Source: Owenia fusiformis (taxonomy: Eukaryota > Annelida > Polychaeta > Sabellida > Oweniidae). From it: a stretch of DNA of 64,000 nucleotides. The DNA lies in assembly GCA_903813345.2 (NCBI GenBank), contig CAIIXF020000005.1, positions 28,461,375 to 28,525,374 on the forward strand. Direction: 5' to 3'. Under the pieces are notes generated by a model, which worked only from the letters and a program-made list of their open reading frames with translations, did no database searches and was not told the origin of the DNA. Both the position numbers and the translations under genes were made by a program. This document shows, one piece after another, positions 8,962 to 35,000 of this stretch. Positions within the stretch are counted from its first letter, which is position 1, and each line of letters begins with the position of its first letter.

Positions 8962-11900
8962 TTATGTGACCTCATTACCGAAAAAGGCTGTCTCCGAGTC
9001 ACTTCCTGTTTTACCATTAGTCCTGTGCCTTGTATCCTGATCTTCATCAACAGACAAAAGAATGTCTGATTCACTTTCATCAGCCTTTTCAGACTTACTG
9101 TAATATTTCACTTTATCAACAGCTTTAAAGTACTTGACACCTGAAGAATCTGCAGTAACCAAAGTTGTCATGCTCTGTGACTTCCAACTTTTCCGCATAA
9201 GGAAATTATCTACGACCCAGAACATAAAAGCCTGAAAAATAATGTCATCTTTGATTAAAATGCAGTTGGATAAATATTTTATTTTAAGTTAAATTTAAGG
9301 TCTCTTTACTCAATTTCATTATGATTGTAACTAAACAGGATACACTCAAATTGTGTTGATATGATATAATAATCTAATCATATAAATATATTATAATTAA
9401 TAGTAAGGTTGTTTATTGTCTTTTCAATGATCATTTTTTATTTGGCTCAATTTTTCAAGTTTTGGAGATGTAAATAAGACTAAATACCTTCTCACATTAA
9501 AAAGTGACACTATACATAACTATTACTACATTGATAATTAGTGGCACTATGAACATAACTTTGACTAAAAACCTACTCACATTGATAATTAATGGCACTA
9601 TGAACATAACTTTGACTAAAAACCTACTCATTGATAATTAGTGGCACTATGAACATAACTTTGACTAAAGACTTACTCACATTGATAATTAGTGGCACTA
9701 TGATAACTGACTAAAAACCTACTCATTGATAATTAATTGCACTATGAACATAACTCTGACTAAAAACCTACTCAAATTGATAATTAATGGCACTATGAAC
9801 ATATCTTTGCCTAAAAACCTACTCACATTGATAATTAGTGGCACTATGAACATAACTACAACTAAAAACCTACTCACATTGATAATTAGTGGCACTATGA
9901 ACATAACTTTGACTAAAAACCTACTCAAGTTAATAATTAATGGCACTATGAACATAACTTTGACTAAAAACCTACTCACATTAATAATTAGTGGCACAAT
10001 GAACATAACTTTGACTAAAAACCTTGATAATTAATGGCACTATGAATATAACTTTGACTAAAACCTACTCACATTGATAATTAGTGGCACTATGAACATA
10101 ACTTTGACTAAAAACCTAACCACATTGATAATAAGTAGCACTATCAACATAACTTTGACTGAAAACCTACTCACGTTGATAATTAGTGGCACTTTGAACA
10201 TAACTCTGACTAAAAACCTACTCACATTGATAATTAGTGGCACTATGAACATATCTTTGACTAAAAACCTACTCACATTGATAATTAGTGGCACTATGAA
10301 CATAACTACAACTAAAAACCTACTCACATTGATAATTAGTAGCACTATGAACATAACTTTGACTAAAAACCTTGATAATTAATGGCACTATGAATATAAC
10401 TTTGACTAAAACCTACTCACATTGATAACTAGTGGCACTATGAACATAACTTTGACTAAAAACCTAACCACATTGATAATAAGTAGCACTATCAACATAA
10501 CTTTGACTGAAAACCTACTCACGCTGATAATCAGTGGCACTATGAACATAACTCTGACTAAAAACCTACTCACATTGATAATTAATGGCACTATGAACAT
10601 ATCTTTGACTAAAAACCTACTCACATTGATAATTAGTGGCACTATGAACATAACTACAACTAAAAACCTATTCACATTGATAATAAGTGGCACTTTGAAC
10701 ATAACTATGACTAAAAACCTACTCACATTGATAATTAATGGCACTATGAACATAACTTTGACTAAAAACCTACTCACATTGATAATAAGTGGTACTATGA
10801 ACATAACTTTGACTATAAACCTATTCACATTGATAATTAGTGGCACTGTGGACATAACTTTGACTAAAAACCTACTCACATTGATAATTAGTGGCACTAT
10901 GAACATAACTTTGACTAAAAACCTACTCACATTGATAATTAATGGCACTATGAACATAACTTTGACTAAAAACCTACTCACATTGATAATTAATGGCACT
11001 ATGAACATAACTTTGACTAAAAACCCACTCACATTGATAATTAGTGGCACTATGAACATAACTTTGACAAAAAACCTACTCACATTGATAATTAGTGGCA
11101 CTATGAACATAACTATGACTAGTTCTAGTTTTGGGCTCTTGATGGGTGACATGATGAACTTCCTAACCTGAAAATAAACATTATTGTAAGTACAAGCAAT
11201 CATTACAAATACAAGAATGCAAGATACAGTATTAGACAATAATTACATCACATACTTTTATAATACAATATTGGATTCTTATAAGAGTTAATGAGTCAAA
11301 AAGTTCTGTCTTGTCACATGATAATTTTCAACAATAATAAGGAATTTTCATGCCTTGAAAAAAGTGTTCTCGTATTGTCTACTTGAGTAAATATGGAAAT
11401 GTTCTCATTATAGCTGTTGGATTGAAGAATTTTCAAGTCATTGTTTATATCACAACGAAAAGTGATTTCAACATATTGATACTTGATTTGCTATATCAGA
11501 ATATTAGATAAATAATTTTCAAAATAGTAATCTATTTACCTCCTCCCAAAATGATGGCAGCACCAAGAGAGTCATGATAATTTTCTCTACAATGATAACA
11601 AGAATATAAAGGGCACTCTGACCAATCCAGGCATTGCACGCAGGTGGTTTTCCTAAAAGGAATGAAAATACATTTTAGCATAATAATTAGTAAATGCTAT
11701 TATTATTATTTTACTATATCGACCTGAGAAATGTGTGACGTCATAGTGGTGGTCCATATGAACCGGTCTAGAATATATTCTGGACCGGCAATTTTCCCCG
11801 GGAAATTAGATTAAATTATGCGTAAGATTTTCTTGCTGTTTCAGTCATGGTCGTTAACGGTGGTAATAATACTAATAACGTCATTTCTGCGAGCAATATA

Positions 11901-14900
11901 GTGAAATATTGGACCTTGGGCCTTCGGCCCTCGGTCCAATATTTCACTATATCGCCCTTAGAAATGACGTTATTGTACTATTGTTATGTAAGGATCTAAG
12001 ATAATTATGTTGTAATGTTATGTTGAAACAAGGCATTAACATGCAAAATGTCACCACCTGCCATTTGTTACTCATGACGACCGCCGTCTAGGAACCACCA
12101 CTGGTGACATAAAAACAGACTTGACAAGGTGGAAGAATGCATTGATTATTGGATAGGCTGGCTGGCTGGGCCTGCTTGATGGATATATAAGTAACTGTTT
12201 GGTATTATTAGGTAATGCTACTGTCCTGATGAAAGATGACGAGATGGAAGAAGAAATAATGGTTATTTGCGTCATTAAATATTTAAAATTTAGTCAAAGA
12301 GATATCATATTTCGAATATGTATATAAAATTACATCTCAACTTTGAAAGTTTAATTTCTTTGAAAATGTGACTTTTAGGTCAGGTAGATAGAGTCTATGT
12401 TCTAAGCACAAGAAATTAGTGAAATATATTTTCTTCATGAATTTTTTCTGGGCATATTTTCAATAATATAATTATCAAACTCAAAAAGCTTATATAAAAA
12501 TTAATCCACTTTATCTATTGAAAATCCAAGTTTACTACTAAGTGAAGTACATGTATGCCTACTGCCATGCTTACCATATTCTCCAAACTTGAGTGTATCC
12601 CAGTGTTTCCGCCTAACAACAACTTGGGTAAGTTTCAGTAGAATATAGATGACAACAAGACCTATGGTGGAGTCAAGTAGGAAGCTAACAAAGTACCTAA
12701 AATATACAAAACAGCGTCTCTTTTAAAATTAGAATAATTCTATGCTTAGAATTTAACTAGTTTGGTATATTTTGGTTTATGTTGGCCTAGGCCTCCATGA
12801 GAAGTAAAATGTTGCAGAAATGAAACAACAAACTAAGATAAGTCAGGGAATTGGAAAAATTAAATTGTGGAATTGATATTTAACCAGCTGACATGTCGAG
12901 GGAGGTCACAAACAGTCTGGTATTAAAGATGGGTCATTGATCTTGTGCCAGCACAAGATGGGTTGCCACACCTTGTGCCGGCACGAGATTACTGACCCAT
13001 CATAGTGTGTCAGTTAAAGATTGGTCATTAATCTTGTGCCAGCACAAGATGGGTTGCCACACCTTGTGCCGGCACGAGATTACTGACCCATCATAGTGTG
13101 TCAGTGAAAGATTGGTCATTAATCTTGTGCCAGCACAAGATGGGTTGCCACACCTTGTGCCGGCACGAGATTACTGACCCATCATAGTGTGTCAGTTAAA
13201 GATTGGTCATTAATCTTGTGCCAGCACAAGATGGGTTGCCATATCTTGTGCCGGCACGAGATTACTGACCCATCATAGTGTGTCAGTTAAAGATTGGTCA
13301 TTAATCTTGTGCCAGCACAAGATGGGTTGCCACACCTTGTGCCGGCACGAGATTACTGACCCATCATAGTGTGTCAGTTAAAGATTGGTCATTAATCTTG
13401 TGCCAGCAAAATTAGCAAAACTTTTTTTTGGTGAAGCTTTGAAATCCTGTTTAAGTCTCATTTTTAATGAGATTTTAGGAGATCTACATTTTTAACCACT
13501 AAAGACTAACATTTTCTTCTATTTGATGGTGTATTTGAATTCTGTGTGTAATTTTCTATCAAAACAACATTGATTTGCACTGTTATTTACCTTTATTCAA
13601 ATTCTAGAGATTTCAAGTTTTCTAAAAATGGTGGGGCTAAAGCCCCATTGACACAATGTTGAAAAACCTTAAAAGTTCATTTGCTCTTCTAAGTATCACA
13701 ATTTTAATATAAAATCATAATCCACATATCAATAATATCATCTACATGTAGTTACATTCCAATGGTGTTTTAAGTTGATCCAAATGGAATTACTTGTTAA
13801 ATCAAGTGACTCTTGCTATTAAGTTACAATGTTATTTAGCCCTATTAATACCAATGATGCCATCTATTTTTCCATATGGAAAAGGGTCAATTATGTCAAT
13901 ATTAAAGTAGAACAACAGAACATAAATGATATTAAAAAAAATAGCCATATAAGTGTAAACATTCAATCTATCTGCCCTATCATACTACATACTGTAATAC
14001 TATAATGTCAAAATTCAGAAAAAGATTGGCATCAGGAAATTCTTGCCTTGAAAATTATACCAATTTTCAATCATGATTTGAAAAATTCTGAAATGCTTAA
14101 GATATAGTACATACCAAGTGCATGGATCTCCAGTGAAGACACCAGCTAGAAAGACATTGGCAAAGTGTATAACAGCAGCACCTACAGCTTGTTTAGAGGT
14201 ATCATAGAACCTAAAATACAAAGCATGCTCTATATATTGCCATAATAATTTGAATTATTACAATCATATCTTAGTTATATAAATTGATAATAAATACATT
14301 ATATAATAATATATATAACATAAGTTAAAAAACAAGTGCTTTCAGAATCCAAGCGTAATATCATTTTATGGAACTTGAACAAAATGAGACTTTGAAATAT
14401 TGATTTAAGAATTACTAAATACAAGAAGGTAAATTAGGATAAAGAAAAAGGTTCCAAACATAAATTTAGTTGTCAAGGACATGAGAATGCTCCCTGAATT
14501 TATAAAATATGAGATGCAAGGAAATGTGCTGAACTTGAGAGTTGAGAGTCTATAAAATACACTCAATGGCTTAACTTAACTTTATAGCAAAATAGCAGGT
14601 ATCAATAAAACCTATCTAGATTTTTCATGAAGCAATATAAAGACAGTGTTTATTTAGGGACCAGATCCAAATATTGACATTTCTAAAAAAATGATTTTAT
14701 TTTGGTTCTATCTTCCTCATCCAAGATGTGAACATGAAAATTACAGATGAAAAAATATATTTGAGGTTTTCCAATCTATGCTGTAAAACTCTGAAGAATT
14801 TCATTTATAATTTAAAATTATTCTATTTTTGACTATTTATGAAAAAGTAAATTACAGCAGCATTAAATTAAAATACTAATCTAGTATCATATATAACTTT

Positions 14901-16558
14901 GTCAATATTTAAACATGTTCACTAAATTCAACTTACCAGATTCTCCAAGGTCGCCTTTCAGGTTTTGGCTCCAAGAATCTCTTAACTGGAAAATCAAATT
15001 CAAATTAATACTGTGTAACTTTTTTATTATGATCTTTATCTTATTTCTCAATACAGATTGGTCAGAGGTGGCATGAAGAAATTAGATTTTGATTAATTGA
15101 TTGTTATGCAAATCAAAATCAAATCAAATCACCTTCACCATCATGGTGCTTTTAGATCTCAGGGATTTTACTTGACTTTGTGTTATTGTATTTAGGTATT
15201 TTTGATTTTTACAATTAACTCTAAATCCTGTAAGAAAAGGGGTATGAAACAAAGAATCTTCTTATCAAAGACTCTATCAACAGATTCTGTAGTGTTTACA
15301 ACAGAGACCACAGACTCTTCAGTGGGGAATAAGAGTATGGGAGAGGTCTAGACAATATCCTGTAGTTCATACTCTTTTTTTAATTGACTGAATATATGTT
15401 TCTCTTAAACCAGTTATCAAAAAATTCTGAAACTTTTTTTTGAAAATGGCCAATGTAAAGCTTTTTGAAAATGCAAGATATAAAAGTTAACAACTTGCAT
15501 CATAAAATAACATAAGTCTAAGAATGTAAAGGAAATTGGCAAATGTAACGCTTTCTGAAAATGCATGCTATAAAAGGTCATAACTTTCAATCGCAAAATA
15601 ATCTAAGTCCAAGAATGTAATGGAATTTCGCCAATGTAAAGGTTTTTGAAAATGCCTGCATAAAAGTTCACTAAGTCCAAGAATGTAAAGGAAAATGGCC
15701 AATGTAAAGCTTTTTGAAAATACATGCCTTACAATTTCACACTTTGTAAAATAATCTAAGTCCAAGAATATAAAGGAATACTAGTATAGTCATTTGAAAA
15801 TACCTGAATTAAAGTTCACAACTTTGCATCGTGAAATAAGTCCAAGAAGTGGGTGAAAAGCTTTACTTTAAAATGACATAAATTTTTGTCCCTAAATCTT
15901 GACACTGATGTGTCGGATGCAGACTATGGGGGTCTGTAAATCTTATCTGTATGTAGACCCCCTGCACCTTATTCCCCACCCCATTGATGAACCTTTGACA
16001 GAGACAACACGAGGAATATTTGTCTAAGGTCTATGATGTGGTCAATAATCGTAAATAGCGAGAGGACATAGGGGGATTCTAAGACACGGGGCATTCCCAG
16101 ACAAACCCTTGGTATCAGGTGAAAATCCAGGGCATTGTTAGACTTTTTACATTATATAACACCCGGATATATCACTTATCACCACATCAATAATATGATT
16201 TTTTTTTTTTTATTATTATTATATCAATAATATGATGATGTGTCTCATTTGAAGTTTCAATAAAGAAACCAGATAAACCAAAGAATAATTGAAGATCATT
16301 CGACAATGTCCCGTGTCCGAGATTACCCCTATGTCCTCGAATACTTTCGTGAGCATCAAATAACTTACCAATGAGCGATGTGAAGGCAAGGAATGCAAGA
16401 AGTCCCTGAACAAATAATCCCAGAGGTCCAAGCAGGGCTCCATGGTCACAATGACTAGCCTCTAGTCCTGACAGTTCTGTCTTCACATCTATCCCTGAGG
16501 AATTTCCAATGAATTCAATGGATGAGCTTTTGACACTGATGCTGACAGAAGAATCCAT
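8962..16558 (-). CDS. STIMATE: STIMATE/TMEM110, ER activator of STIM (7 coding exons, 307 aa)
   Basis: Exons, minus strand: 16558-16369, 14985-14937, 14210-14115, 12696-12575, 11652-11540, 11167-11084, 9231-8962. All borders are GT-AG and phases join exactly (924 bp). The product is a multi-spanning ER protein. In vertebrates STIMATE promotes STIM1 opening at ER-plasma membrane junctions for store-operated Ca2+ entry. Recognised by ERRPWRIW followed by FYDTSKQAVG and HFANVFLA (about residues 70-100), CxxWIGQ..LYI (exon 5), and AFMFWVVDNFLMRK (about 219-232) before an acidic/serine C-tail. About five membrane segments are visible, near 44-62, 85-103, 112-135, 160-180 and 205-228. Length compares with about 294 aa in human. 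Strong ATG, no in-frame upstream choice needed. Intron 6 (9232-11083) contains a minisatellite derived from exon 6 and its donor. Head-to-head with SFMBT. Confidence 0.93.
9531..11118. repeat. 51-bp minisatellite, about 32 copies, derived from the STIMATE exon 6/donor border
   Basis: Units recur every 51 bp. On the minus strand each reads 30 bp matching the end of exon 6 (VMFIVPLIIN) plus 21 bp of intron starting GTGAGTAGG, i.e. the 17-residue unit VMFIVPLIINVSRFLVK. The exon-proximal unit is the genuine exon end (11084). Of 31 junctions, 21 keep GTGAGT and 2 more have GTGAAT; the rest have lost the donor by small deletion or substitution. A 348-bp higher-order repeat is visible (10024 versus 10372). 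A degenerate unit lies at about 9500-9530. Confidence 0.95.
11864..11988. repeat. About 125-bp hairpin in STIMATE intron 4
   Basis: The arms converge on GGGCC-TTC-GGCCC. Each arm carries AATAACGTCATTTCT and AATATAGTGAAATATTGGACC in opposite orientation. A partial related sequence (CTATATCGACCTGAGAAATG, GACGTCAT) lies at 11713-11744, so the hairpin may be part of a larger foldback element from about 11700. Confidence 0.75.
12922..13408. repeat. 91-bp tandem repeat, about 5.4 copies, in STIMATE intron 3
   Basis: Near-identical units of 91 bp. Each contains the perfect palindrome CTTGTGC-CA-GCACAAG and the near-palindrome CTTGTGCCGGCACGAG. The last unit breaks off at GCCAGCA, immediately before the dispersed repeat at 13430. 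Confidence 0.93.
13430..13665 (+). repeat. Dispersed repeat, inverted relative to the copy at 60403-60625
   Basis: Shares long blocks, such as TTTTAACCACTAAAGACTAA, TCTGTGTGTAATTTTCTATC and CTTTATTCAAATTCTAGAGA, with the reverse complement of about 60403-60625. No open frame. Likely an inactive transposon fragment or SINE-like unit. Confidence 0.75.
15430..15850. repeat. Degenerate tandem repeat in STIMATE intron 1
   Basis: Five imperfect units of about 70-91 bp, each with CAATGTAAAGCTTTTTGAAA, AAAAGTTCA and AAGTCCAAGAATGTAAAGGA. The short minus-strand open frame across it is incidental. Confidence 0.75.
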
Positions 16559-23000: not shown

Positions 23001-26000
23001 TGAAATAATTTCTTTTTTAACCCAATTCTTTCCCCAACCCTTTATCATAAACATTTACTGTAAAACAGAATTTAAAAAGCACAACCCAAATATAATTTCC
23101 AAGAACAATTTTTCTGCTACAGTGTTGGTGTCTGGGCTATTGTGATGAACATATGATGTTACTAAATGTTTGTTGCTTCTATTTTATTGTTTGGCTATTG
23201 ATTGTGTAGAAGACAGCTCTTCAAAGGGGATGGCTAAGTACAAAACCGAATAGTAGTTTGCGGTGGAGTATACATGAATGTTCTGATTGCATGCATGCTA
23301 TTCATTGTATTCAGAAAAACATTGATTGGATTCATTTTCATGACATGATACATGAACTACAGGAACGTTTTAATGTAAAAATCTTGCAAATATGTTACTC
23401 TCAATAGACAAAAGAAAATGTGTATGAATGAAGTTAGTAAATCTTTCAGTATTTTGAAATATAATCTTTATTTCTTTCCAGGAAACTAAAGTTAATCAAA
23501 TATCCTAATATTTCCTGAATTTTCTCAATTTCATAAAGGTGCTTATGGCTCATTATGTGGGTGGTCTAATATAACTCTGTTTTCAAAATTCAAGTGGTTG
23601 CAACAGGCACTTGGTTGTACCACTGAATGTAGTTTGGTAGAGATATAGAGAAGCCATCCATCTGCATCCACCCGAGTTGGATTCAAATTTTATAGGCTGT
23701 CATTCACATCGTGTTCAAAATTTGTTATTTGATAAAATAAATTTCATCCAGTGAGATTTGCTCCTCGGGGGAGTTGCTGTTTTTCTAGTTTAGTACTCAA
23801 TAATCTTTTTATTTAAAGTCGAGAATTATACCTTAGACTTGTAAAAATTTGTTTTCTAGGGCAAAAGCCTGAAGTGAATACATCTGAAGGAGAGCAACAA
23901 TCCTTACCAAACAATCACCAACCTTTGCCAAGCAACTCACAATCTTTACCAAGCAACAACTCACAATCTTTACCAAGCAACCAGCAATCTTTATCGAAAA
24001 CAACTTCCCAGAATGAACAAGGCCTGAATGACCAAACCCAGACTCAACAAGGCCCTTCCCAAGTAAGATTGGTTCAACATGGCCTGAATCAACAAAGACT
24101 GAATCAGCAAGGTCTTAATCAACAGAGACTGAATCAGCAGTACTTTACTCAACAAAGAATAAATCAAGTTAATCAACAGAATCTTACTCAACAAGCCATT
24201 ATTCAGCAAGGTCTTACTCAACAAGGACAAACTCAACACAGACTTACTCAAGCTCAGCAGATTACTCCATGTAATCTAACAGCTGGCAATCTCACGTTTC
24301 CAACATCCTGGCAGCTGAGCCCACAACTACAGAACATCCAGCAATTATCAAAACCATCTTGTGTGGTCCAGCCTAGCATATTCAACCAGCCTAGCACGCT
24401 ACTGCCAAGCACACTACCGTCTGCCACAATAAAACCTAGCACACTACAGCCTAGTCCATTGCAGCCTAACACTCTGCAGCCTGTCACACTACAGCCTAAC
24501 ACAATACGGCCTGGCACACTACAGCCTAGCACACTACAAGCTAGCACAATACAGCCCAACGCACTAAGGAACCTTCAACAGGTGGTCCTCACCCAACAAC
24601 AGGCTATTAAAGCACAACAATATAACATCTCGCAGTCTCAGCAGTATGCAGCTAATCTTGCACAACTGAATCTTTTCCAACATCATGCAAATAGTCAACA
24701 ACAAGTAAATAATCAGACACAACAAGTGAATGATCAGGTACAACTAGTAAATAATCAAACAGAACAAGTGAATAACCAGATACAACAAGCGAATAATCAG
24801 ACCCAACAAGCGAATAATCAGATACAAAAAGTACAAAATCAGATACAACAAGGGAATAATGATCAAGCACAACAAGTAAATGAACAGATACAACCAGCGA
24901 ATTATCAGACATCAGCAAATGATCAATTACAGCAAATGAAAAATCAAATGAGCCAGCTGAGTAATCACATGCAACAAGGAAATAAACAAAATCAACAATT
25001 AAGTAATCAGACCCATCAAGTTCGCAGTCACACAGTTATAGATCAAGTCCAGAAAGAGGCTAGTAGTGAACCACAATCCCCGAGTCCATTCAATCCTGCT
25101 TTCATTGAGACTGATCTCACTACACCGCTTTTTCCTCCTAAGAAAACAACCACTTCTGAACATGCTAAACCAACAGATCCACTAGATAAAATGAATCTTA
25201 GTACTACTCCAGGGAAAGGGTCAGTTACAGCGACCACTGCCACACAACAAAGTAATGTTACTATGGCAACAGGTTCAGCTGCTCCAGGTGGATTGAACCA
25301 ACCTCAAATCCAACCTGCACCTGCAGTGCAAATTGCCATGAGCCAAGCTCAAAACACAGTCCAGATTGGGGCTGGTCAGCAACAAGGTCAACTTCAAGGG
25401 GCAAACACAGTCCAAATTGGAGACCAACAATTCCAGATTATAAACTTTCCGTTGTTGAGTCCCGGGGCAAATGTGACACAGGCACCAAACTTTCAGACAC
25501 AGGTCAGAAACATTGTCCCTGTCACCCAGGCCCAACAGATGAGGCTAAGTGGAAGTAATATTCAGCTCCCTATCAGATTCATCAACCCCCAGGGGGTGGC
25601 CCCACGGGCAGCTTCTGGGGCCCAACAGACAGTCATGACCATGGGAAACTCATTGAATGTTGGTAACATTGGGAATAACCAGCGGTTCATTCTCGCTAGT
25701 CCCTTACAACCCGGAGCTATACAACAAGGAGTAAGAATGTTGAACCCTACCCAGGTATCAAATGTCCAGACAATACAGCAGCCTAATGTTCATACCATAC
25801 AACAATCTAATGCTATCATGTCAGGAGGCAAAATGAGTGTCATGACACCAGCACAGACTAGGCCAATGGTTGGTCAAGCTCAGCAGAGACCAATCCTCCC
25901 AGCACACCAGAATACTAGTAATCGCTACACTCAACCCCAGAATATACCAACTCCAAGGCAGATCTCTCCTTCCCCACAATTTCAAAACCAGATTGTGAAT

Positions 26001-29000
26001 AACATGCAGAACATGGTGACGAATCTGCAAAGTTTTGTCAGTCAGGATTCTCCACGAGTAAATGTACTTCCAGTTCATAGCCAATCATCCCAGAGGTTAC
26101 TCTCTGCCCCCAGTCTTAGTCAACAGTCCCACCAACCTCCAGTTAGTCTCACCCCTCAGCCAGCCCATCAGCCAAAACCTGCCCACTCAGGCTCTGTAGG
26201 AGGTCTCAAGTACTCCCCACCTATACAGCCACCTCCTGCCCACACAGGAGCAGTGCAACCAAGATCAGCTATATCACCGAATCCCCAAATAAGGAGTATG
26301 CAGCAGACACCACGTGCGGCACATAAGATGCCTGTTATGACTTCTAAGCCTCCATCCCCATTTGTTCATAGGATACTTTCTCATGTACCTAATGTGCAGG
26401 CATTACGGCCCCGTCTAGGCCAGCAACAAAATGGCAGCCAACAACATAGTGGTGCTCAATCTGGTCACCAGAGGGTGCTCATAAGTGGTGGGCAACAACA
26501 CATTATGAGAGATAACTCAGATCTAAGCTCATCTTATCCTGTTCAACCAGGAGGGATAAATCCAGGGGGTCAGCCTAGGAGTATGATGCCCCTCTCAGTG
26601 AGCACGGGTCAGAACACCCCACCTGCTAGGTCCCAGGCTATGCCTCCCAGTGCCCCAGCAGCTCACTCAAACAGGTCCCCATCCCTATCTCCTGCCATAA
26701 TTGGCCCTAACCAGGTACCCCCTTATGCCCACACACCCTCTTCACCACATATGCGTTCTACCCCCTCTCCCCATGTTCATCCTTCTATATCCCCCCACAT
26801 TCACTCCTCAATATCCCCTCATATCCATCCTGCTGTCTCCCCACAACGACACCCTTCTATATCCCCCCAGTCTCAACTTCCAGCACATACTCCCATCCTT
26901 CCCATGCCTTCAAACCCAATATTCCCAACTTCATCTCCTCTTGCAATAGCATCCTCAATAAACACTGCGACACCCACAATGTCTCAACCAGTAAATCTAC
27001 ATAAGCCAGCCTTTCAAAGCCCACAAATTGCCCCAAGAGGCAAATCACCAATATCTCCAAGGCAACGACCCCCAAAATCTCCTGGATCCCCCCGTAGATC
27101 AAGATCTCCTGGACGGGCATTGCCTAGTCCGTTGAGAGTGCCACAAATCAAATTCAGCTCAACTTCTACTAACAACGTGCAAAACAAGAATGTAGTTCTG
27201 TCATCAGACCAAGACACAAAGCCTCTAGATGGTCCTATTGAAAAGATGGATGTTGATGAAGATGGACATAAACAAGCAAATGGTGAGCAAGTTCTTATTG
27301 TTAAAATGCGTAATTTCAGTTAAGCATAAAATGAAATTTTGATCAATAGATGTAAAGCCTAACTTTATGCTCATAATTTTATGCATGTTTAGGATCTCCA
27401 CAGACTAAAAACATTTCTTTCAATGTTTGCGTGAAAGAAAATAATAATTCCCAACTACATACCTAGAAATCGTACATATACAGTAGTCATGTTTATAAGG
27501 TTTTTCTCTCCCTACATTTATGAGAGATTCACATATTTCCAATTTTACTCGCAAACCCATGACCAACCCAATAAATAGTTTTAATCCCCTTGATCACACC
27601 CATGATTCAGTTTTAATTTATATTTCTGTGCCCTTCTTTATTTAAAGGATCTAAATAAATGTTACATCTGTACTCAATTTGCAAAAATGGTTAAGCTGTT
27701 TAAAAATATTCATTCTCTATTCTCTCTCTATTTATGATGCACTATGGGATCGTTATACGTTCTTTACAGGAGTACCTGTAGAATATAACAATGATGAAGA
27801 GTTTGTTTGGGATGAGTACCTGGAGGATACTGGAGCTATTGCAGCGCCACCTACTTCCTTTAAACATGTATGTATATTGTATAGAAGAGAGACAAATACT
27901 ATTATGTTTGATTTTCTTTCGCTGTTTTGTAACATTTTTTGGTCCTTTCCCTTTGGCACTTACATATTTATTTGTAACCAGCATTTAAGTTCAGTATTAG
28001 CATTTGCCATTGGTGACTGTAACACGTTTATAACCATCAGTTGTTACATAGCTAGTTGAAAGCCCATGGTTGTTATAACTGTCATGGTAATAGCTTGTAA
28101 CAATTTAATAAACCACAAATAAGCTATGGGATATATCTTAGGTAGGCATTCTATGCAAAACATTGAAAAAGGAAAACATTTTTATCTTCAGGTCGAAGAC
28201 AGTTTACAAAGTGGATTCACAAAGGGAATGAAACTTGAAGTTGCAAATAAGACAAGTAACTCCACCTATTGGGTGACATCTGTTGTCATGACGTGTAATC
28301 AGTTGCTAAGGTTACGCTATGATGGTTATGGCGAGGACAGTTCTGCAGACTTCTGGTGTGATATTCAAACTTCTGATATCCATCCCATTGGGTGGTGTGC
28401 ACAGAATGGCAAGTCACTTCAACCCCCAGAAGGTGAGAATTGAGAAATGTTTAATACTATTTAGGAAACAGAGAAATGTACTTTTACATTTTGAGTAACG
28501 TCCCGTCAGCCATTTTTGTTGTTTTCTTAGAAGTGGGTGCACTGTTGTGGAGTATGAATAAAAAATGTGTCAAAATAGTATGCATTTCAAAATTCCCCTA
28601 TAGTACTTGATAATTGAATATGTTTGATAAAAGGAATGTATGAACAAAGATCTCCAAGATCTGAATTTAGATTAAGTTTTTACCATTATAATTATAGCTC
28701 TAGTCCTATATGTTTTTTCAGCTATAAAGAACAAATACACCAATTGGAGTGAATTCCTAGTGAACACACTAACTGGGGCTAGAACTGCCCCTGCATACTT
28801 ACTGGACAAGGTATGGTGTCATGACGCATTTCTAGTCAGTTTTTTGTTTGTTTGAAAGTGGTTGGTGTTTGGTGGTCAGTGTTTGGCCTCTGTAACAAAT
28901 GACAGATGGTGACATTTTGCGAGTTAATGCCTTGTCTGATAATAACAGTACACTGTATTTGTATATTCACTTGATTACAGTCATAATTTCATGATTTCAT

Positions 29001-32000: not shown

Positions 32001-35000
32001 ATAACAAAGATTATTCACCATTTGATCTTCGTGCACTTGGACAGTTCTGCTACAGTGATCGGCAGTCATATCCTAGGGGTGAATTCACACCATATTTTTC
32101 CTGTGGGGTGGTGTGAGAGTAACGGGTACCCCATCAAACCACCGAGGAATCTAGCCAAGTTGAAAAGGTCCCGAGATGCCATAGTAGCTCCAACCAAGTA
32201 AGTTTTGAATTTATACAATAACAAAAGATAAAAATATGAAAAGGATACTTCACTATTTTACAGTACTAGGTAATATTGAAGGAATACATATTTGAACTTT
32301 GAAACGTATATGCAGTATAATACATAGGCCCATTTTACAAATATTCTTATTAAGTAAATATGTTCTGGACCTCAAGAGGAATTATGTCTACACTTAAACT
32401 AGGGACAAATGGATGGTATGGTGCCTGTTATTTATCAATGAAATTGATTTTTTCAGGAACAATTTGACACCAGATGAGTTCCGCTCTCACACATACTCTG
32501 AAATAAGAAATGGAGAGGCAGGAGGTGAGTTGAACATCCCATAATGCACTGATAATCTTGAAAATTACCCAAGATTTAGAGCATGTTTTAATGAAGTGCA
32601 ATGTGCAATATTTGGAAAACAAAATACAAATAAAACCCTTTTCATTGAATTATCCCAGTCTGTAAATAACTTCCCAAATATACTAGATTAACTTTTTGAA
32701 CAACCCTTGTACATGTAAATGACACCATTGGTGGATATGATACAATTTTTCTGAAGGTATCAAAGTTTGAATTTACATAAGCATGAGTACACATATTTTC
32801 GAAATCATTGAAGCCTCTCAGAATTTTAATTGTGATTTTGCTTACTAGACAAGTTTTCCTTCAAATTTTGATATTCACAAAGAGAAAGGTTCAAGCTTCA
32901 GACTGTTCAGACTTTTTATCACACTTTTTCAGAGTGCTATATTGTAGAAATCTTGTTTGAATTTGAGGGTATATTAGGATAAGAATTAGAGGTTATTTTA
33001 ATTGCAGGTAAACCAGGATGGTGCCCTAAGATCTACTTCAACCACAGGTGTTTCTCTGGTCCCTTTCTTAGCAAGGGACGAATTGCAGATCTGCCTAAGT
33101 GTGTGGGGCCTGGGCCTATTGTCCTTGTGTTGAAGGAGGTGCTTTCCTTACTCATCAATTCTGCCTATAAATCTAGTCGGGTGCTAAGAGAAGTGCAATT
33201 AGATGGGGCCCATAACCCCAAGATGTATCAACAACAGCTCAAAGCTAAGTAAGTGTGAAACAAGTTTGTTTTTAAAGCAATATTGAATCAGTTTGTAACC
33301 TGGGCGTGTAAGTTGACTTAAGATAACATTTATGCCAATATGTTTTTTCCAATCATACATCAATTCCAACTGAAGACTGTCAAATTGAACACTTTAAAGT
33401 GCATAATTGTTTTCAAGGTTTTGGATGTGTATTGTTATTTACAAGGTCAGCAATTTGAATTTCAAATGTGTGTCTCATTAGCTCACATGGTGAGCTTTTG
33501 CAATCACTCACTTGTCCGTCTGTCTGTCTGTCCGTCCGTCCATCTGTCCGTCAACAATAGTGGCACGTTTTAAAACCTCTGTCAATAGGATTCCTGTTTT
33601 AAGTTATTTCTGTTCAACATCAGTGCAGAAAACTCCCCTATGACTCTTGGTTCAAAAGCTCGCCTATTTTCAAAATGGCCGTCACTTTTGTCTCGCGAAA
33701 TTCACTTTTGACCCATTTCCTAGCTTTGCAAATAATTGCAGGTGTCCTACAGAGTAAAAATTCATGTCAATGTAAAGGGTAGATATATGAAATAATTTTG
33801 TAACAAAAAATCAGCGAAAAATTATATCCATTTTTTTTATTTTCAGCCATTTTAGTTAACATTGATTTGTCTATCTGACTCGCGAAATCAACTTTCCGTC
33901 AATAACAGTGGCACGTTTTAAAACCTCTGTCGATAGGATTCCTGTTTTAAGTTATTTCTGTTCAACATCAATACAGAAAACTCCCCTATGACTCCTGGTT
34001 CAAAAGCTCGCCTATTTTCAAAATGGCCACCATTTTTGTCTCGCGAAATTCACTTTTGACCCATTTCCTAGCTTTACAAATAATTTCAAGTGTCTTACAT
34101 TGTAAAAATCCATGTCAATGTAAAGAGTAGATGTATGAAATAATTTTGTTACGAAAAATCAGCAAAAAATTATATCCATTTTTTATTTTCAGCCATTTTA
34201 GTTAACATTGATTTGTCCATCTGTCTCACAAAATCTACTTTTGAACCATTTACCTTAAACCCTCTGTCGATAGGATTCCCGTTTTAAGTTAATTTTGTTC
34301 AACATCAATACAAAAAACTCTCCTATGACTCTTGGTTCAAAAGCTCGCCTATTTTCAAAATGGTCGCCATTCTTGTTTCGCGAAATTCACTTTTTGCCCA
34401 TTTCCTAGCTTTACAAATAATTTCAGCTGTCCTGCATTGTAAAAAGCCATGTCACTGTAAAGAGTAGTTGTATGAAATAATTTTGTTACAAAAAATCGGC
34501 AAAACATTATATCCGTTTTTTTATTTTTAGCCATTTTAGTTAACATTTGTTTGTCCATCTGTCTCGCGAAATCCTCTTTTGGACCATTTGCTTAAAACCT
34601 CTGTCGATAGGATTCCAGTTTCAAGTTATTTTTGTTCAACATCAAAACAAAAAACTCCCCTATGACTCCTGGTTCAAAAGCTTGCCTGATTTCAAAATGG
34701 TCGCCATTTTTGTCTCGCGAAATTCAATTTTGGCCCATTTCCTAGCTTTACAAATAATTTCATGTGTCTTGCATTGCAAAAAGCCATGTCACTGTAAAGA
34801 GTAGTTGTATGAAATAATTTTGTTACAAATAATTTGCAAAAAATTATATCCGTTTTTTTTTCAGCCATTTTACTTAACATCGATTTGTCCATCTGTCTCT
34901 CAAAGTCCAAAATAGTGGCAAGTGGCTTGAAATAATTTTGTTACAAAAAATCAGCAAAAAATTATATCCATTTTTTTCTGTCACCATGTGACCCCAGTAC

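Follow-up and report, generated by a model that had tools for sequence, protein, structure and literature searches.

The window, the 64,000-nucleotide stretch of Owenia fusiformis DNA analysed here, carries an intact STIMATE gene on its minus strand. Seven exons with AG/GT borders form one uninterrupted frame of 307 aa (Table 1). A Pfam match to PF12400 (STIMATE) runs across exons 5-7 with E 1.5e-20, and across the whole assembly PF12400 was detected nowhere but at this gene. Apart from the 51-bp array described below, a STIMATE intron holds a second minisatellite, of 91 bp x 5.3 with 97% matches (window 12923-13408), which contains internal near-palindromes resembling TTGTGCCGGCACAAG.

Table 1. 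Positions of the STIMATE exons, of the parts of the exon 6 array, and of arrays inspected elsewhere in the genome (window coordinates unless a contig is named)
Feature	Position	Strand	Description
STIMATE exon 1, coding part	16369..16558	-	ATG at 16558; open reading frame with GT donor; frame runs on through seven exons
STIMATE exon 2	14937..14985	-	AG/GT borders, unbroken frame
STIMATE exon 3	14115..14210	-	AG/GT borders, unbroken frame
STIMATE exon 4	12575..12696	-	AG/GT borders, unbroken frame; contains PF12400 match at C5:28473941-28474069
STIMATE exon 5	11540..11652	-	AG/GT borders, unbroken frame; PF12400
STIMATE exon 6, 84 nt	11084..11167	-	borders ATTTTCAG/GTTAGG and ATCAAT/GTGAGT; PF12400
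Original exon 6 5' splice site	11078..11083	-	GTGAGT; predicted main donor
STIMATE exon 7	8962..9231	-	acceptor TTTTTCAG/GCTTTT; stop codon closes exon
Minisatellite, 51 bp x ~32	9524..11121	-	unit of 38 nt exon end and 13 nt intron start, including donor
Donors that would keep frame and native C-terminus	10420..11083	-	14 positions, 11 of them GTGAGT
Two tandem 348-bp blocks	9980..10675	-	10675-10328 and 10327-9980; multi-unit duplication inside array
Degenerate final repeats and 3' edge	9466..9529	-	GTGAGAAGGTATT then TAGTC, the word opening the unit's exon part
Tetraspanin array	C1:442.7-443.7 kb		54 bp x 18, exon end/donor; Pfam 6.5e-11
BLOC1S5/Muted array	C1:2,575 kb (from 2575.1 kb)		52-bp unit, about 30 copies, exon end and donor; Pfam Muted 3.7e-14
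Rieske ferredoxin array	C1:6,977 kb		38-bp unit; Pfam Rieske_4 3.4e-8
Array at open exon without Pfam match	C1:5,412 kb		33-bp unit
Array at open exon without Pfam match	C1:3,281 kb		24-25-bp unit

Structure of the exon 6 array

The end of exon 6 forms the start of a tandem array. TRF reported a period of 51 with 31.9 copies and 88% matches across 9524-11121, and the last 38 nt of exon 6 (11121-11084) supply the unit's exon part. The preliminary description had recognised a minisatellite built from the exon/donor border of STIMATE exon 6, and this was confirmed, at 51 bp x about 32 in an intact gene. The division of the unit into 30 exon and 21 intron bases given there had to be corrected, however. 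Homology to the exon begins at 11121, so that the unit has 38 exon and 13 intron bases, and 'TAGTCAAA', which had been read as intron, corresponds to exon TAGTCATA.

Unit-by-unit alignment placed 31 core donors, the first at 11083 and the last at 9580, followed by two degenerate remnants at 9529 and 9495. The earlier count of 21 GTGAGT junctions was upheld, the total being 33 when the two remnants are added to the 31 core junctions; many units, not all, thus keep the splice signal. The other junctions read GTGAAT, GTGGTT or TTGAGT (two each), GTTTTT (two, with 8-bp deletions) or GAGTAG (two, with 2-bp deletions), the remnants reading GTAGTA and GTGAGA. Matches to an exon-end probe in the 498-Mb assembly, which represents one haplotype, were confined to this array, and a dispersed repeat family was ruled out by this single locus.

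Units show similarity at a lag of seven, and their mean pairwise difference is 11%. The two 348-bp blocks, which adjoin each other and are seven units long, are identical at 339 of 348 positions (97.4%). Such near-identity is the mark left by unequal exchange or slippage within a minisatellite. Long stretches that are 97% identical could also reflect a short repeat collapsed or inflated by the assembler, and arrays of this kind are often misassembled in copy number. We consider an assembly artefact very unlikely, since the units differ from one another at many positions, the edges of the array are degenerate, the array occurs once in the assembly, and similar arrays are found in other genes.

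Reading frame, constraint and donor choice

It had been proposed that each later donor would add 17 residues without a frameshift. This is correct through donor 14 (10420) and fails beyond that point. After donor 14 a 1-bp deletion brings a TAG into frame, every donor past 10420 leads to termination at residue 253 (numbered from the beginning of exon 6), and some of these later donors are also out of frame. The open frame from the exon 6 acceptor through the 14 donors, about 250 residues long, is what would be seen if exon 6 of the normal protein extended through many units. To that reading we give almost no weight: the frame stays open because the exon part of the unit is coding, no stop falls in its 13 intron bases in that frame, and the unit length of 51 is divisible by 3. 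Moreover, the substitutions are neutral, in-frame stops follow the open part, and the seven-exon model gives an intact STIMATE without the array. A frame on the opposite strand, 10410-11171, was judged to be a by-product of the 51-bp period.

In the aligned array units, no conservation of the donors above background, and hence no sign of selection on them, was found. Substitutions per site were 0.043 in the donor hexamer and 0.044 in the 30-nt exon part, per-unit counts that are not independent owing to the block copies; with each substitution type counted once, the donor had 0.67 types per site and the 38-nt exon part 0.66. The donor hexamer contains 16 of the 27 gap cells, and donors have therefore been lost rather than preserved. 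Against the consensus unit, the 33 distinct substitutions comprise 25 nonsynonymous and 8 synonymous changes, where 23.8 and 8.8 are expected, and coding constraint on the array was rejected on these counts. The donors and the encoded peptide seem unconstrained, and to judge by these comparisons the array looks selectively neutral. The functional weight placed on the donor series in the preliminary description is thus unsupported, given that the donors are neither conserved above background nor all in frame.

The expectation that many near-equal donors would stand opposite one acceptor, at 9231, was borne out. The first donor and nearly all intact copies share the same predicted U1 pairing energy, about -7.1 kcal/mol; therefore nothing intrinsic favours the first donor, and the choice would be made by position and exon size. 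The donor at 11083 is most likely the one used in most transcripts. Its dominance is expected because it keeps the 84-nt exon and because, to judge from published data, the amphioxus Adh3 and globin mirages leave regular splicing undisturbed (PMC3087553). If the next donors were used now and then, the protein would gain one or a few hydrophobic segments of 17 residues, and a donor past 10420, if used, would bring a premature stop. A minor isoform with 17 or 34 added residues is possible by analogy, because in human IFI6 splicing does occur from two downstream repeat units, in the account given by PMC4526556. Such an isoform would have a longer hydrophobic region at the last transmembrane helix, where a simple hydropathy scan shows one more hydrophobic peak.

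A broader proposal is that the array acts as a ladder of alternative donors, in which donor 1 and several later donors are used in measurable amounts, yielding isoforms with extra VSRFLVKVMFIVPLIIN segments in the manner of IFI6. The 11 GTGAGT sites among the first 14 donors that retain the frame and C-terminus, the equal U1 pairing and the downstream donors of IFI6 all speak for such a ladder. Nevertheless we think it unlikely, since no selection signal is present on the donors or the encoded residues, the strongly hydrophobic 17 residues per unit, lying beside the last transmembrane helix, would likely be harmful, and amphioxus mirages are reported to leave regular splicing undisturbed.

Origin of the array and comparison with known repeats

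Beyond the final donor remnant, the intron sequence is GTGAGAAGGTATT-TAGTC-TTATTTAC, with TAGTC in register with the start of the unit's exon part. Either this TAGTC is ancestral exon/intron microhomology that permitted slippage, or it belongs to a truncated last copy. A 10-bp word, TACATAATTA, is common to the exon and the intron edge of the tetraspanin array on C1, again in register, and the two words together lead us to favour short direct repeats as the trigger. We propose that the array started as a tandem duplication of 51 bp, of which 38 came from the end of exon 6 and 13, the 5' splice site among them, from the start of intron 6; slippage or unequal exchange between the exon TAGTC and the intron TAGTC probably set it off. 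Growth to about 31 copies would have followed by ordinary minisatellite turnover, including duplications of seven-unit blocks. Only the first copy would be the true exon end, and the remaining copies would be intronic and evolving neutrally. We hold it to be probable that the array is a mirage-type minisatellite, arising by border duplication and neutral expansion, with the first donor mainly spliced.

The preliminary description knew of no described case of this kind, wrongly, as the amphioxus mirages and the human IFI6 minisatellite precede it. The unit of the IFI6 minisatellite is 12 bp long and is repeated about 26 times. In mirages, exon-intron borders are duplicated in tandem in the manner of a minisatellite; they are described for Adh3, the globin genes BflGb6/BflGb9 and PGBD5 (PMC3087553, PMC3902484), in papers whose text on mirages cites Canestro et al. 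2002. As in those genes, the STIMATE units run in tandem across an exon/intron border (38 exon and 13 intron nt) and carry the splice signal in an intact gene; as in those genes too, there is concerted turnover within the cluster with divergence at the edges, here seen in the degenerate units at 9529 and 9495. Unit lengths in Adh3 run over 10-72 bp, a span that takes in the 51 bp of STIMATE, while the amphioxus globin mirages differ in having 150-160-bp units in 3-6 copies, against about 31 copies of 51 bp.

For human IFI6 (6-16/G1P3), the title of Turri, Cuin and Porter 1995 speaks of 'multiple splice donor sites' (cited in PMC4526556, PMC2915984). Like that repeat, the STIMATE minisatellite lies at an exon end, its repeats carry donors, its units are in frame, and the later donors could add residues; in STIMATE the frame is kept for the first 14 donors only. 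The two differ in that the use of two downstream units is observed in IFI6, whereas the later donors of STIMATE are predicted from sequence, and in that the STIMATE unit includes 38 coding bases. Variable internal tandem repeats at exon-intron boundaries have also been described in human segmental-duplication genes (PMC2812944). These share with STIMATE a minisatellite expansion at gene borders that is able to remodel introns, but have about 4 copies, lie in primate-specific paralogs, and include some novel introns with transcript support. The STIMATE array belongs to an already known kind of repeat, represented by mirages and IFI6, and by itself is an ordinary, apparently neutral case. At the same time, an exon end present with its splice site in dozens of copies offers a natural experiment on the spliceosome's choice between equal donors.

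Further exon-end arrays in the genome

Sampled genome GC is about 35%, below the roughly 41% of amphioxus, which speaks for a genome other than amphioxus; a species search with COX1 gave no hit. A genome-wide search for three strong donors (AGGTRAGT) spaced 36-66 bp apart returned 1,188 matches, compared with 491 in a backward control, matches inside one array not being independent. Triplets of bare GTRAGT showed no genome-wide excess (12,940, with 13,543 in the backward control). In a random 160 kb there were 47 arrays of period at least 10, and GTRAGT lay in the unit of none with at least 3 copies.

The 5' flanks were inspected for the six first-listed strong-donor arrays, all at the start of contig C1. 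In five of the six, the array sets out from what appears to be the end of a coding exon, with an acceptor upstream, and three of these exons were confirmed by Pfam; the 5' flank of the sixth, at C1:11,974 kb, contains no clear exon. In BLOC1S5/Muted, later donors would shift the frame because 52 is not a multiple of 3. Unit lengths are inconsistently multiples of three, and frame preservation is therefore no general rule. Scaling by the number of matches from these six arrays at the start of C1 suggests about fifty strong-donor arrays genome-wide, with a wide error. What is added to the known systems is the presence of several such arrays in one genome, possibly tens to a few hundred, which would let donor choice and intron gain by border duplication be measured over many genes. 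That the lineage is rich in exon/donor minisatellites, some of which make in-frame isoform ladders or become new exons or introns, we regard as improbable; if true, minisatellite turnover at splice borders would be a genome-wide source of change in gene structure.

A weaker candidate array was noted at C1:790.6 kb. Just upstream of its array, the tetraspanin gene also has a duplicated acceptor and exon start, 120 bp x 2. Elsewhere in the window, a tandem array of 337 bp x 3.9 with 89% matches occupies 33570-34904, and an open frame of 1168 residues on the plus strand, at 23817-27323, is Q/N/P-rich and contains several short in-frame tandem repeats.
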